The translations under genes were made by a program, and so were the position numbers. Below the pieces are notes generated by a model. That model did not search any database. It was not told the origin of the DNA and saw only the letters and a list, made by a program, of their open reading frames with translations. DNA of 33,206 bases. Source: Acidimicrobiaceae bacterium (lineage in GTDB: Bacteria > Actinomycetota > Acidimicrobiia > Acidimicrobiales > RAAP-2). The first letter of the stretch is position 1. Each line of letters starts with the position of its first letter. The DNA lies in the NCBI GenBank assembly GCA_947372925.1, contig CANBVQ010000011.1:1-33206 (forward strand), given 5' to 3'. Positions 2,126-17,607 of this stretch are shown in pieces.

Positions 2126-3061
2126 ATGGCGATTCGCCTCTCCATCATCATTCCGGCTCACAACGAAGGTTCGCGCCTCGAGGAGGGTCTACGTCGCCTC
2201 GAACCGATTCTCGAAGTCCTCGGTCGTGACGAGGTCGAAGTCATCGTGGTCGACGACGGCTCGAGTGATGACACGGGACTGCGCGCCAGCAAGCTGCTGG
2301 CCTCACTCCCCCACTCCCTCGTTATCAAGATGGAGCAGAACGCCGGGAAGGGTGCGGCCCTCAAGCTCGGCGCCTCGGTGGCCCTGGGTCGCGAGGTCAT
2401 CATCACCGACGCCGATACCGCCATCAACCCCAGTCAGATGCCGGCCCTCCTCGCCGCACTACGTGGCCACGACATGGCCGTGGGGTCGCGAGCCATTGAC
2501 GGCGTCATCCGGTACGACAGTGCGCTGCGCACCGTGGCCGGAAGTCAGTTCAACCGCCTGGTGCGCCACTGGACCAAGACGACGATTCGCGATACGCAGT
2601 GTGGCTTCAAGGCCTTTCGTCTGCCGATTATTCGCCTCTTCGCCATCTTTGGACAGGTCGAAGGGTTTGCCTTCGACGCCGAGTGGCTCTACCTCGCGAA
2701 CCGTCTCGGTCTCACCATCGCCACGACCCAGGTCACGTGGGACGACGTGGCCGGATCTTCAGTGAGTCTGGGCCGTCACGCCTGGTCCATGCTGAAGGAG
2801 ATTCATGATGTGCCGCAGACCTCGTACCGCACCGTGGTGGTGCGGGTGCCTCGTGGTGCCGTCGATCGCGACGCCGTCGCCACGGCCTGCAAGCAGTCCC
2901 GTATTCAAGGGGTCGTCTTGGCGCACCAGGGTGAGCTGGACATTGTGGTCCTCCCCCGCGACGGGGCTCCGGGCGCACTCAGTATCGCCAAGGTCTGTGG
3001 TGGTGAGATGGGGCTCATGTCCATTGACGAGCTCCGCGGCTGTGAGTTCGAAGCGCTCTAG
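2126..3061 (+). CDS. Family 2 glycosyltransferase, dolichyl/polyprenyl-phosphate sugar transferase-like
   Basis: This is a 311-residue GT-A fold enzyme. Visible motifs are IIIPAHNE at the N-terminus, VDDGS at 42-46, the metal-binding DAD at 95-97 and DTQCGFK at 156-162. The last is typical of ALG5-like glucosyl- or mannosyl-phosphoprenol synthases, which move a sugar from a nucleotide sugar to a lipid phosphate on the cytoplasmic face of the membrane. There is no C-terminal membrane helix. About 80 C-terminal residues (VVVRVPRGAVD onward) are an extension I cannot assign. ATG 2126 was chosen because the conserved strand begins at once; a longer frame from 2015 would overlap the peptidase. The sugar is unknown. 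A role in glycosylating the Thr-rich exported proteins of this region is possible but only an inference. Confidence 0.88.
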   Translation: MAIRLSIIIPAHNEGSRLEEGLRRLEPILEVLGRDEVEVIVVDDGSSDDTGLRASKLLASLPHSLVIKMEQNAGKGAALKLGASVALGREVIITDADTAINPSQMPALLAALRGHDMAVGSRAIDGVIRYDSALRTVAGSQFNRLVRHWTKTTIRDTQCGFKAFRLPIIRLFAIFGQVEGFAFDAEWLYLANRLGLTIATTQVTWDDVAGSSVSLGRHAWSMLKEIHDVPQTSYRTVVVRVPRGAVDRDAVATACKQSRIQGVVLAHQGELDIVVLPRDGAPGALSIAKVCGGEMGLMSIDELRGCEFEAL

Positions 3062-3699
3062 GCCTTCGGCAGCAACCAGTTCGAAACCAGTTCCGGGGCG
3101 CGCTCGCGCCACTCTTCGGACGTGATGGCGTATCGCGTGTGGTCTTCCCAGACGCCGTCAATCTGAATGTACCGTTCGGCGATTCCCTCCATGCGGAGTT
3201 GGAGCTTGTCGGCCACGCGAATTGAGGGGACGTTGCGAGGAATGATGTTGATCTCCACGCGGTGCAGTTCGAGCGCATCAAAGGCGTACTGCATAACGGT
3301 GACGACGGCCTCGGGGGTATAGCCCTGACCGGCGAGGGCTTCATCAATCCAGTAGCCGATGTACCCGGACTGCACGGGACCACGCTGAATAGAGGACAAC
3401 GTAATTTCTCCGGCGAAGCGGCCGCCGACGAACATGCCGAATCCCATGCCGGTGCCCATCTGACGTTCACGTTCACGAATGGCGCAGCGACTGTTGAAAC
3501 TCCGGCGATCTTCGGCGAGGTGCGGGGCGGTGGCCGGACGGGGCTCCCACTTGACGAGCCACTCCTGGCAGCGCTGGCGAACTTCGTACCAACCGTCATA
3601 GTCGTGCTCGGTCATCGTGCGTAGGACGAGGCGCCGCGCGTGGAGCACCAGGGGCGCCATGGGCCGTGGTCGGCTTCCGATCTCACTCCCTCTCACCAC
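3058..3699 (-). CDS. GNAT N-acetyltransferase, RimJ/RimL-like
   Basis: This 213-residue protein belongs to the Acetyltransf_3 branch of the GNAT superfamily. Visible features are the first strand (HARRLVLRTMTEHDYDGWYEVR), the acetyl-CoA loop in EALAGQGYTPEAV near residue 125, and the LHRVEINIIPRNVPSIRVADKL segment typical of RimJ/RimL enzymes, which acetylate N-terminal amino groups of ribosomal and other proteins. The substrate here is unknown. GTG 3699 is chosen because GAGGGG ends four bases upstream; a second GTG at 3696 and an ATG at 3660 are possible. It follows ppx by nine bases and ends the long minus-strand cluster. Its stop overlaps that of the convergent glycosyltransferase through a shared CTAG. 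Confidence 0.88.
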   Translation of the reverse strand: MVRGSEIGSRPRPMAPLVLHARRLVLRTMTEHDYDGWYEVRQRCQEWLVKWEPRPATAPHLAEDRRSFNSRCAIRERERQMGTGMGFGMFVGGRFAGEITLSSIQRGPVQSGYIGYWIDEALAGQGYTPEAVVTVMQYAFDALELHRVEINIIPRNVPSIRVADKLQLRMEGIAERYIQIDGVWEDHTRYAITSEEWRERAPELVSNWLLPKA

Positions 3700-14069: not shown

Positions 14070-15071
14070 CTAGGCCAAATTCTCGCCGCCGAAGATTTCC
14101 GACACGGAATCGTCCGAAAAGACCGCCATCATGGCCCGTGCGACGAGGGGCGCCACGCTCAAGATTTCGAGCTTGGGGAAACGACGATCTTCGGGCAACG
14201 GCAAGGTGTCGGTGACGACCACGCGCGAAACTGGTGCCGCCATGAGCCGTTCAATGGCTGGTGGCGAGAAGACGGCGTGGGTAGCCATCACCCAGATATC
14301 ACCGGCCCCTTGGGCCTTCAGCAGCTCGGCGGCGGCCAAAATCGTGCCGGCCGTGTCGATCATGTCGTCAATCAGGATGCAGTGGCGTCCGGCCACGTCA
14401 CCGACGACGTCACGGGCGACGGCCACGTTGGCCGTGCCGCGAGGGCGGGTCTTGTGGACCAGAGCCAGGTCACAGCCGAGGTGCTGGGCGTAGCGCTCCG
14501 CGACCTTTACGCGTCCGGCGTCCGGAGCCACGACGACGAGGTCCTGAGTCTTCGTGTGGGCCTTGAGGTACTCCTCGAGCACCGGGGCGGCGGTGAGGTG
14601 GTCCACCGGCACGTTAAAGAAACCTTGGATCTGGCCGGAGTGCAAGTCGACGGCCAGCACGCGGTCGGCCCCGGCGGTCTGCAACATGTCGGCCAGCAAC
14701 TTCGCGGTGATCGGTTCGCGACCAGTTGACTTTCGATCTTGTCGGGCGTAGCCGTAGTTCGGGCAAACGGCCGTGATGCGCTTAGCCGAAGCACGCTTGG
14801 CGGCGTCAATCATGATGAGCTGTTCCATGATGGAGTCGTTCACTGGTGAAGCGTGTGACTGCATAATGAAAACGTCGGCGCCGCGAATGGAGTCTTCGAA
14901 CCGGCAGTGAATTTCACCGTTCGCGAATTCTCGCAGTTGCACTGCTGAGAGGGTTCCGTTGAGTTCTTCGGCAATGGACTGAGCGAGACCGGGGTTGGTC
15001 CGACCCGTCACCATCACCATGCGACGTAAGGGGGAGGCTTCCACGACGACAGCGTAGTTCGTCTCGCCCAT
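14070..15071 (-). CDS. prs: Ribose-phosphate pyrophosphokinase (PRPP synthetase)
   Basis: This 333-residue enzyme makes 5-phosphoribosyl 1-diphosphate from ribose 5-phosphate and ATP for nucleotide, His and Trp synthesis. Motifs visible are YGYARQDRKSTGREPIT (107-122), VDLHSGQIQGFF with metal-binding His144, VAPDAGRVKVAERY, the flexible-loop basic residues KTRPRG (207-212) and the PRPP loop ILIDDMIDTAGT (232-243). The N-terminus carries about 17 residues before the usual first strand (RMVMVTGRTNPGLAQ). ATG 15071 is kept, but ATG 15020 just before that strand is an alternative, since no good ribosome binding site marks either. In Actinobacteria prs normally follows glmU directly; here a two-gene module lies between them. 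Confidence 0.96.
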   Translation of the reverse strand: MGETNYAVVVEASPLRRMVMVTGRTNPGLAQSIAEELNGTLSAVQLREFANGEIHCRFEDSIRGADVFIMQSHASPVNDSIMEQLIMIDAAKRASAKRITAVCPNYGYARQDRKSTGREPITAKLLADMLQTAGADRVLAVDLHSGQIQGFFNVPVDHLTAAPVLEEYLKAHTKTQDLVVVAPDAGRVKVAERYAQHLGCDLALVHKTRPRGTANVAVARDVVGDVAGRHCILIDDMIDTAGTILAAAELLKAQGAGDIWVMATHAVFSPPAIERLMAAPVSRVVVTDTLPLPEDRRFPKLEILSVAPLVARAMMAVFSDDSVSEIFGGENLA

Positions 15072-15171: not shown

Positions 15172-15780
15172 CTATGAATCGAGGTTTTCTTCTCCGAGCA
15201 GGTCCTCAAGGAGTCGAACACGCCTACGACTCCGGCTTCGTCGACCAGGACGAGCCGCTTGCTCGACCAAGCCCACCGCAAGATCCCGTCGAACTGGCGG
15301 AAGCCCCGCCTCCAAGGTGCGCTCGAGAAATTGCTCAGCCTTGAGATGTCCAGACTTCAGTAACGACTTGATCCAGTCAATATCTTTTTGTCTACCGGCT
15401 GCCAATTTTGCAACGGCCAAATCATGGATTTCTGGACACAGCCCCGTGGTCTTGTGCGTCGCGTGACCATCGACCGCGATGGCACGCTCCCGCCATGTAG
15501 GTGGTAGGACGAAAAGTTCCCTTGAGACACCTTCGGCGAAAAACCCATGGGTGGTATGAAACAGCGTGTCTTCGCCAATATTCCCGTTAATAATCATGGC
15601 CTTTTGGTCAATCGGATCGTCGACGGCAGCAATGTCCGCCTCCCGTGAAACCACGACCGATTTAGGCAAATCGTTCGGGAATTGGGCTAGCGCTGCTTGA
15701 GAGCCACCGACGATGACTACGTCTTCTCCCAATAAGTCACAAGCAGCTCGAATCACGTGTTGTAGTTCTTCGAGTTTCAT
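15172..15780 (-). CDS. DUF6036-type nucleotidyltransferase, probable toxin
   Basis: This 202-residue protein has the layout of the minimal nucleotidyltransferases related to AbiEii/MenT: VVIVGGSQAAL (GGS at 25-27), an acidic strand with Asp49 in READIAAV, and HDLAVAKLAAGRQKD (119-133), the most telling segment of DUF6036. Its neighbour is a small XRE regulator that overlaps it by ATGA, the usual toxin-antitoxin arrangement. Related toxins add nucleotides to tRNA 3' ends or modify other targets; the target here is unknown. The usual second aspartate of a DxD pair is not evident (E-A-D), so activity is uncertain. The DNA looks more A+T-rich than its neighbours. A chromosomal nucleotidyltransferase without toxicity is the alternative. 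Confidence 0.72.
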   Translation of the reverse strand: MKLEELQHVIRAACDLLGEDVVIVGGSQAALAQFPNDLPKSVVVSREADIAAVDDPIDQKAMIINGNIGEDTLFHTTHGFFAEGVSRELFVLPPTWRERAIAVDGHATHKTTGLCPEIHDLAVAKLAAGRQKDIDWIKSLLKSGHLKAEQFLERTLEAGLPPVRRDLAVGLVEQAARPGRRSRSRRRVRLLEDLLGEENLDS

Positions 15781-16394
15781 CTAGACGCCGATTCCGTGCC
15801 GGCGAGTCGAATTGCAGAATTCTCAATTTGGCCGAGCATCTCTCGTCGCACTTCATCAAGTGGTCGTCCGGACTTCGCCGCCACCCGGACACCATCGGTC
15901 GCCATCAATACTTCGAATCGCTCATCGTCAGAAAGGATGCCGCTGAAGGGGCTCGCTTGACGCAACTCTTTTGCGGCCGCATCGGTTGAGGTCATCACGC
16001 GCAACAGGTCATTTAGTGGTCCATCAAGCAAGACTTGCCATGTGTCGAAGTAAAAACTCGATCGTCCGTATTGGTCGCTCTCGCGCATAAGAGACAAATT
16101 TCGCCGTGCAATCGCCATCATGTCCGTGGGATTGGCTTCGATATTCAATGCCACTGCTCGGTGCAGCTCCAAGGTACGAATTTCAGGATCGCTCATTCGA
16201 GGGCGAACTTCGATCACTAGATCACACCCAGCAGCGTCGGCCAGACGTACAAGAGTTGCCAGACCTGGATCCTGACGCCCCTTGGCGTAGGCGACCAAAG
16301 AGGAGTTGGACATCTGAGCGCGGCGGGCCAATTCACGTTGCGTGAATCCACTGGCGCGACGTAAACGCTGCAGGATGGTGTCACTTGAGTTCAT
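15777..16394 (-). CDS. XRE-family DNA-binding protein, probable antitoxin/autoregulator
   Basis: This 205-residue protein has an XRE helix-turn-helix at about residues 6-58 (GFTQRELARRAQMSNSSLVA, then YAKGRQDP). A C-terminal domain of about 130 residues follows (from about 75) that I do not recognise. The ATG at 16394 is chosen because a near-consensus promoter lies directly before it; the frame is open to 16448 but that extra part contains the promoter. Its TGA overlaps the ATG of the nucleotidyltransferase gene. In such pairs the upstream HTH protein represses the operon and neutralises the partner. Neutralisation is inferred from context only. Confidence 0.75.
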   Translation of the reverse strand: MNSSDTILQRLRRASGFTQRELARRAQMSNSSLVAYAKGRQDPGLATLVRLADAAGCDLVIEVRPRMSDPEIRTLELHRAVALNIEANPTDMMAIARRNLSLMRESDQYGRSSFYFDTWQVLLDGPLNDLLRVMTSTDAAAKELRQASPFSGILSDDERFEVLMATDGVRVAAKSGRPLDEVRREMLGQIENSAIRLAGTESASR

Positions 16395-16429
16395 AACGGT
16401 ATTGTATTCCATACCACTAACGAAGGCAA
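16395..16429 (-). promoter_or_regulatory. Promoter of the toxin-antitoxin-like operon with an operator-like repeat
   Basis: On the minus strand TTGCCT (16424-16429) and TACAAT (16401-16406) are separated by exactly 17 bases, and the ATG of the regulator follows six bases after TACAAT, so the message should be leaderless. The arms GGTAT and ATACC of an inverted repeat straddle the -10 box. This is where an autorepressor of the XRE type would be expected to bind. Confidence 0.65.
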
Positions 16430-16492
16430 TATCGAGTCGGCGTCTCATTTTTGTTCAGCCTTATGGGTTGAAGGCCATGAAAGAGGCCAAGC

Positions 16493-16527: not shown

Positions 16528-17607
16528 TTAGCTCTCGCGCGAGACCTGTGGTTCAGCATTGACTATTTGTCCTGGCTCGAGCACCACGAATGAGTCGACT
16601 TTCGCTCCGGCGCCAATAGTCACGCCGGTCGCTTCTACGGTGCCCACCACGGCCCGCTCGCCAATGACCGCATCGGTTAAAAAGGCGTTCGGCCCGATCT
16701 GCGCTCCCCCACCAATCTGCGAGTGGCCCTTGAGAATTGTTCCGGGGAGCAGCGAGACGTCCGGGCTGAGTTGCACGTCGGCGTCGATGTAGGTCGTGGC
16801 CGGGTCCCACATCGTGACCCCTCGTCGAAGCCAGCGGTCATTAATACGGCGACGAAGCTCCCGCTCGGCACTAGCCAGCTGGGCCCGGTCGTTCACGCCC
16901 GCCGCTTCGCTGGCGTCTTCGAGTACGAAGGAACGGGTGAGGTGACCACCCTCGTAGAGAACATTGATCAGATCGGTGAGGTAGTACTCGTTCTGCGCGT
17001 TCTGTCGACCGACCATGCGCAGTCCGGCGCCGAGCAGACTGCGGCGCACCACCATGATCGAGGTGTTGATTTCGTGAATCTGACGCTCGGTCTCCGAAGC
17101 GTCTCGCTCTTCAATAATCTTGGCAACTTTGCCGTCACGTCCGTAAATAATCCGGCCGTAGCCCGAGGGCTCATCGACCACGGCCGTCAAAACGGTGAGG
17201 GCCGCACCACTCTCTTCGTGCTGGGTCAGGAGGGCCTGAATAGTGCTCGCCCGTAGCAGCGGAGTGTCGCCCGGGACAATCAGGACGTGACCATCGCGGT
17301 CGCCCATGATGTCGTCAATTGCCGGGAGGGCCACTGAGACGGCGTGGCCCGTGCCTAACTGTTCGCGCTGTTCGACAAAGCGCAACGTCTCACTCGCAGC
17401 CCGTTCCGTCACGGCCTTTTCGACCCACTCGGCCCCGTGTCCGATGACGATGACGGTGGCGACGACGTCATCACCCGTCGCCGTGGCGTCAAGGACGTGC
17501 ACCACCATGGGGCGACCGCAGAGATGGTGGAGGGGCTTCGGTCGGGCCGAACGCATTCGCGTTCCTTCGCCGGCGGCCAGCACCACGACACAGGTCGGTT
17601 GAATCAT
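16528..17607 (-). CDS. glmU: GlmU-like UDP-GlcNAc pyrophosphorylase lacking the acetyltransferase active-site region
   Basis: This 359-residue protein has a complete N-terminal uridylyltransferase domain: LAAGEGTRM (10-18), Lys24, QLGTGHA (83-89), metal ligand Asp114 in GDTPLL, YGRII and Asn239 in GVNDR. It makes UDP-GlcNAc from GlcNAc-1-phosphate and UTP. A left-handed beta-helix begins at about 268 (YIDADVQLSPDVSLLPGT) but stops at residue 359. Full-length GlmU has about 450-490 residues. Missing are the segments carrying the acetyltransferase residues, such as the HLSYLGD and NYDG regions, and the LRPG motif reads LEPG. ATG 17607 begins right at the first strand. The adjacent foreign-looking module makes disruption one explanation; a lineage-specific short form is the other. 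Confidence 0.9.
   Translation of the reverse strand: MIQPTCVVVLAAGEGTRMRSARPKPLHHLCGRPMVVHVLDATATGDDVVATVIVIGHGAEWVEKAVTERAASETLRFVEQREQLGTGHAVSVALPAIDDIMGDRDGHVLIVPGDTPLLRASTIQALLTQHEESGAALTVLTAVVDEPSGYGRIIYGRDGKVAKIIEERDASETERQIHEINTSIMVVRRSLLGAGLRMVGRQNAQNEYYLTDLINVLYEGGHLTRSFVLEDASEAAGVNDRAQLASAERELRRRINDRWLRRGVTMWDPATTYIDADVQLSPDVSLLPGTILKGHSQIGGGAQIGPNAFLTDAVIGERAVVGTVEATGVTIGAGAKVDSFVVLEPGQIVNAEPQVSRES

Follow-up and report, generated by a model that had tools for sequence, protein, structure and literature searches.

The acetyltransferase of GlmU is usually regarded as a drug target and as the standard way in which bacteria make UDP-GlcNAc. In the GlmU of E. coli and pneumococcus, the residues for acetyl-CoA and glucosamine-1-phosphate lie in and after the LRPG segment. 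Cutting E. coli GlmU to 331 residues in the laboratory yields a uridylyltransferase with a shortened helix whose structure was solved alone (PDB 1fwy, 1fxj). A natural loss of the acetyltransferase half is found in Chlorobaculum limnaeum, where GlmU without its C-terminal domain was interpreted as a lost pathway and no replacement enzyme was proposed (PMC7725333). Mimivirus has two separate, biochemically characterised proteins: R689 (255 aa), which resembles the N-terminal domain of GlmU and makes UDP-GlcNAc, and L316, a 148-aa GNAT that makes GlcNAc-6-P from glucosamine 6-phosphate and uses glucosamine 1-phosphate five-fold less (PMC9614988). A GNAT fold is also found in eukaryotic GNA1 (EC 2.3.1.4); in the C. 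elegans enzyme, Glu104 and Asp105 contact the sugar hydroxyls, Lys136 and Arg164 the phosphate, and Tyr149 is positioned at the thiolate (PMC3413214). Here we describe a bacterial order in which GlmU has lost its acetyltransferase half, and we propose that a separate 143-aa GNAT probably acetylates glucosamine phosphate in its place.

The window, the whole stretch of 33,206 nucleotides that was analysed, carries a short glmU at 16528-17607 on the minus strand, which translates to 359 amino acids and a stop codon. The uridylyltransferase domain (from residue 1 to around 230; 16918-17607, minus strand; Pfam NTP_transf_3) is complete, with residues 7-250 fully matched and the catalytic-domain residues invariant across the order, and the claim of the first-pass annotation that this half is intact therefore holds. 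The part of the left-handed beta-helix that is still kept (residues 264-359; 16531-16818, minus strand) appears as short strands in the AlphaFold2 model (pLDDT 93), with a Hexapep match at residues 295-322. Residues 7-355 match positions 3-341 of the 452 positions of the NCBIfam glmU profile (TIGR01173) at 334 bits, under the cut-off of 366.85 bits, and against PRK14352, the nearest model, the match reaches no further than position 348 of 488. Alignment with M. tuberculosis GlmU places LEPG (residues 343-346; 16570-16581, minus strand) where that protein has LRPG, with E344 instead of the arginine, and none of 23 GlmU sequences of the order has Arg at this position. The earlier description of a helix that stops at residue 359, with LEPG for LRPG, was thus accurate, as was its statement that no remnant of the missing part is seen: a search of the whole genome with the GlmU profile detected no C-terminal piece near the gene, and a query made of the missing part of full-length GlmU detected no remnant behind glmU in the window or in relatives. 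Compared with bifunctional GlmU (TIGR01173, EC 2.7.7.23 / 2.3.1.157), the window gene keeps the uridylyltransferase domain, the first helix coils and the operon place ahead of prs, but its protein is without any acetyltransferase segment past profile position 341, the LRPG arginine and the later acetyltransferase residues. It matches the 331-residue E. coli protein, also a uridylyltransferase with a shortened helix; however, that cut is laboratory-made, whereas the cut seen here is natural and ancient.

The whole order shares the short GlmU, which became fixed in the order's ancestor and is not a fresh breakage. Almost all GlmU frames of 61 relatives are of the short kind, within the genus as well as in the majority of the order's other sampled families. 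We also examined a class-wide sample of 110 genomes that are at least 90% complete, 35 from the order and 75 from other orders. Of the order genomes, 31 gave a GlmU match; in every one the protein ends by profile position 347 unless the stop is read through, and none of them passes the TIGR01173 cut-off, whereas full-length GlmU is found in 66 of the 75 genomes from other orders; the remaining nine comprise three fragments at contig edges, five genomes with no GlmU match and one genome with a short GlmU (G237). Across the phylum, 83 of 90 are over the GlmU cut-off. Assembly error, frameshift or chance as the origin of the short frame was rejected, as GlmU stops at one and the same point in almost every relative; this disposes of the sequencing or assembly error at 16528 that the first-pass annotation had named as a possible refutation, while the lineage trait that it had offered as an alternative, should all relatives be short, is what the alignment of relatives shows. 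In two members of the order (G018 and G171) the beta-helix is wholly lost, and these two and G237 encode the uridylyltransferase domain alone (247-294 aa; L179, L276 and L270). Order genomes without a recognisable glmU at the cut-offs used were also seen (G009, G011, G024, G240, G179, G195 and G207), which may reflect assembly gaps or further divergence.

Two explanations centred on the gene itself were weighed. According to the first-pass annotation, a neighbouring toxin-antitoxin-like module might have shortened GlmU in this genome. The module (15172-16448) consists of genes for an HTH protein (15777-16448, minus strand; Pfam HTH_3) and its DUF6036 nucleotidyltransferase-like partner (15172-15780, minus strand; Pfam DUF6036, 3.8e-10), and it lies between glmU and the usual downstream neighbour, prs (14070-15071, minus strand; NCBIfam PRK03092, above the cut-off). 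Its start 79 bases past the glmU stop codon and its GC content, 0.541 against 0.619 for the window, speak for such an event. However, the module stands between glmU and prs in the window genome only and is absent from 46 other glmU-prs loci of the order, in which both genes are on one strand, 19-149 bases apart, and GlmU is equally short. The module is a separate AT-rich insertion and not the cause of the shortening, a reading that is refuted with virtually no probability left to it. Its HTH protein has a weak capH-like match in PADLOC. The other explanation, that the short GlmU still acetylates through a new active site on its shortened helix, could account for the fact that most members retain part of the helix, with an end point that varies rather little. 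Against it, the residues for acetyl-CoA and acceptor lie in or after the lost segments in established GlmU knowledge, so acetyltransferase activity of the short protein is not expected; the retained helix is also poorly conserved, and G018, G171 and G237 do without it. We consider continued acetylation by GlmU highly improbable.

The substrate for the missing step is nevertheless supplied. Every order genome tested has both glmM and glmS, which are adjacent in the window genome, so glucosamine phosphate is made and acetylation is still needed; the earlier conclusion that the cell needs another acetyltransferase is thereby upheld. The same genes bear on the possibility that uptake or recycling supplies GlcNAc or GlcNAc-phosphate and makes de novo acetylation unneeded. 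Loss of the acetyltransferase domain has been read elsewhere as pathway loss (PMC7725333), and many members of the order have small aquatic genomes; yet glmS and glmM would be useless in pure salvage, and a strict need for external GlcNAc is unlikely in an order whose genomes measure 1.3 to 5.5 Mb. Salvage thus appears very unlikely. An acetyltransferase fused to GlmM or GlmS was rejected because both proteins are of ordinary size in the window genome (456 and 613 aa). In 10 of 19 genomes tested, an oversized GlmS-like protein adjoins glmM and replaces ordinary GlmS (L118:3244-6609, L119:2926-6429 and others); these frames are mostly 1,120-1,190 aa (one is 812) and contain GATase and SIS domains with long unassigned parts. 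This protein, which is found in other families, was rejected as the acetyltransferase as it also occurs alongside full GlmU and has no acetyltransferase match.

The window genome has 12 GNAT matches, one of which, a 143-aa protein encoded outside the window (G000:C12:734-1165), was picked by its resemblance to the Trypanosoma brucei GNA1 (TbGNA1, PDB 3I3G; PMC4964394), its second-best PDB sequence match, before any look at distribution. All of 41 order genomes carry this GNAT, at 50-64% identity, and three genomes from other orders of the class are without it; in the class-wide sample, it occurs in 34 of 35 order genomes versus 3 of 75 from other orders. It was present in every order genome without a recognisable glmU that was tested for it, a set to which G009 does not belong. 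The one order genome with no GNAT match (G238, 96% completeness) has a short GlmU. Records that match the GNAT bear the labels Acidimicrobiales, Acidimicrobiaceae, Ilumatobacteraceae, Ferrithrix or Ca. Microthrix, with a few that are clearly odd, and the order is therefore taken as Acidimicrobiales. The genes surrounding the GNAT encode a Nudix protein, a PAC2-like protein and GlnD, among which no hint of sugar metabolism was found. The window itself encodes a RimJ-like GNAT (3058-3699) that is unrelated to the GlmU question.

The three carriers from other orders are informative. G237 has a GlmU of 247 aa that ends inside a contig, with 3.6 kb behind it, in the usual ispE-glmU-prs setting, whereas five other full-length members of its family (f29) that were tested have GlmU proteins of 458-467 aa and no GNAT. 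In a tree of the uridylyltransferase domain G237 falls within f29, which indicates a second, independent loss. The other two carriers, G185 and G188 of family f79, have a full-length GlmU with its motifs kept, so the GNAT is able to coexist with GlmU. Among the GNATs of the order, those of G237 and f79 fall together (SH-aLRT 91 and 94), a grouping of sequences that points to transfer, and the pattern in these three genomes fits transfer of the GNAT first and loss from GlmU later. An independent-pairs test yielded three supported pairs, too few events to reach significance, and the case rests on the pattern.

The 143-aa protein scores 61.8 bits against PF00583 (GNAT), for which the gathering score is 20.7, and 31 of 31 members are above that score. 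Its AlphaFold2 model (pLDDT 96) has a predicted GNAT fold, and a fold search of the PDB with this model returned an uncharacterised Agrobacterium GNAT at the top and TbGNA1 at rank 2, with AAC(3) aminoglycoside acetyltransferases further down; the top folds include several enzymes that act on amino sugars. Through the alignment with TbGNA1, the invariant E76-D77 and Y124 align with the active-site Glu104-Asp105 and Tyr149 of GNA1. Unlike GNA1, with which it shares less than 30% identity, the protein has Thr or Ser at the positions of the phosphate-binding Lys136 and the conserved Cys, and three additional residues in a TSRPxR loop whose R114 and R117 are invariant. Near the C-terminus, R138, which is invariant but missing in G237 and f79, may match the phosphate Arg of GNA1. 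We infer that the protein acts like GNA1, although we leave it outside the GNA1 family. In a search of BFVD, a 447-aa Yasminevirus protein named "UDP-N-acetylglucosamine diphosphorylase" (A0A5K0UB38) aligned with the GNAT model at a TM of 0.79; its name and length suggest a possible fusion of a uridylyltransferase and a GNAT.

A different acetyltransferase, either an LbH protein or another GNAT, could instead do the job, with the 143-aa GNAT an unrelated enzyme specific to the order. The window genome does encode four further proteins of LbH transferase type and some ten further GNATs, most of them without an assigned function, and the 143-aa GNAT has patchy relatives on plasmids. However, the LbH proteins resemble DapD, gamma-carbonic anhydrase, serine acetyltransferase and WbbJ, and the separate LbH glucosamine-1-phosphate acetyltransferase that the first-pass annotation proposed to search for was not found among them; the GNAT fits much better. 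The best LbH rival, the WbbJ-like protein, was rejected on its distribution, as it occurs in 16 of 20 order genomes, is absent from G237 and is present in three genomes with full GlmU. A control GNAT (L129) was likewise rejected, being nearly confined to the genus (six of seven genus genomes and hardly elsewhere). Several other GNATs resemble MshD, RimJ or ArsN1, and among the unassigned GNATs, part of which were profiled, none is known to be order-wide. Replacement by a different acetyltransferase therefore seems unlikely, though it is the strongest of the alternatives.

Several observations nonetheless count against the 143-aa GNAT as the replacement: its occurrence with full GlmU in G185 and G188, its absence from G238, the exchanged Lys136, lost Cys and loop insertion, and its uninformative neighbours. 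So do other Actinomycetota that are without it, namely family f33 with a short GlmU (L170, L171) and f54 with a gapped one (L172); these changes are probably independent losses, and other replacements must then exist. The f33 genomes and C. limnaeum share with Acidimicrobiales the natural loss of the acetyltransferase half and differ from them in that f33 is without this GNAT and no replacement was proposed for C. limnaeum. Also to be counted are plasmid-borne relatives of the GNAT at 44-62% identity in Streptomyces, Actinomyces (Actinomyces oris), Curtobacterium and Phyllobacterium (L314-L319). As Streptomyces and similar species are expected to have a GlmU of the ordinary kind, the family at large may have another role. 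A further relative of 147 aa, with the motifs QLSS, IEDVVVD and LTSRPSR, is encoded on a 194-kb viral, phage-like contig (L311:3974-4417).

On balance, we think it probable that the short GlmU uridylylates only and that the separate 143-aa GNAT acetylates glucosamine phosphate, as suggested by the order-wide co-distribution, the second case in G237 and the failure of the controls. Mimivirus L316 and R689 provide a tested precedent that supports this reading: by description, both systems pair a GlmU-type uridylyltransferase lacking an acetyltransferase with a separate small GNAT, although the viral proteins are characterised biochemically, while the Acidimicrobiales pair is known from genes and occurs with glmM. 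In the order's ancestor, GlmU would have been cut back to the uridylyltransferase half, and the GNAT would transfer an acetyl group from acetyl-CoA to glucosamine 6-phosphate or glucosamine 1-phosphate, the former being slightly favoured as substrate. With the 6-phosphate, GlmM would then yield GlcNAc-1-P, in the eukaryotic order of steps, and the short GlmU would complete UDP-GlcNAc by uridylylation only. More tentatively, and with somewhat less than even confidence, we suggest that a whole peptidoglycan-making order uses GlmS, then a GNA1-like GNAT on glucosamine 6-phosphate, then GlmM on GlcNAc-6-P and finally a uridylyltransferase-only GlmU, and that the GNAT also spread to other lineages, in which GlmU was cut again once.

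The Mimivirus pair and loss of the GlmU C-terminus are known, and our search, outside which most subscription journals fell, found no paper describing the GlmU shortening or the GNAT trait in Acidimicrobiia. The order of the pathway, through the 6-phosphate or the 1-phosphate, is directly testable with one small protein. If our reading is true, the missing enzyme has a name in a large group of bacteria from water and soil, pathway surveys err when they conclude from a short GlmU that UDP-GlcNAc synthesis is absent, and a mobile GNAT is able to bypass the acetyltransferase half of GlmU.
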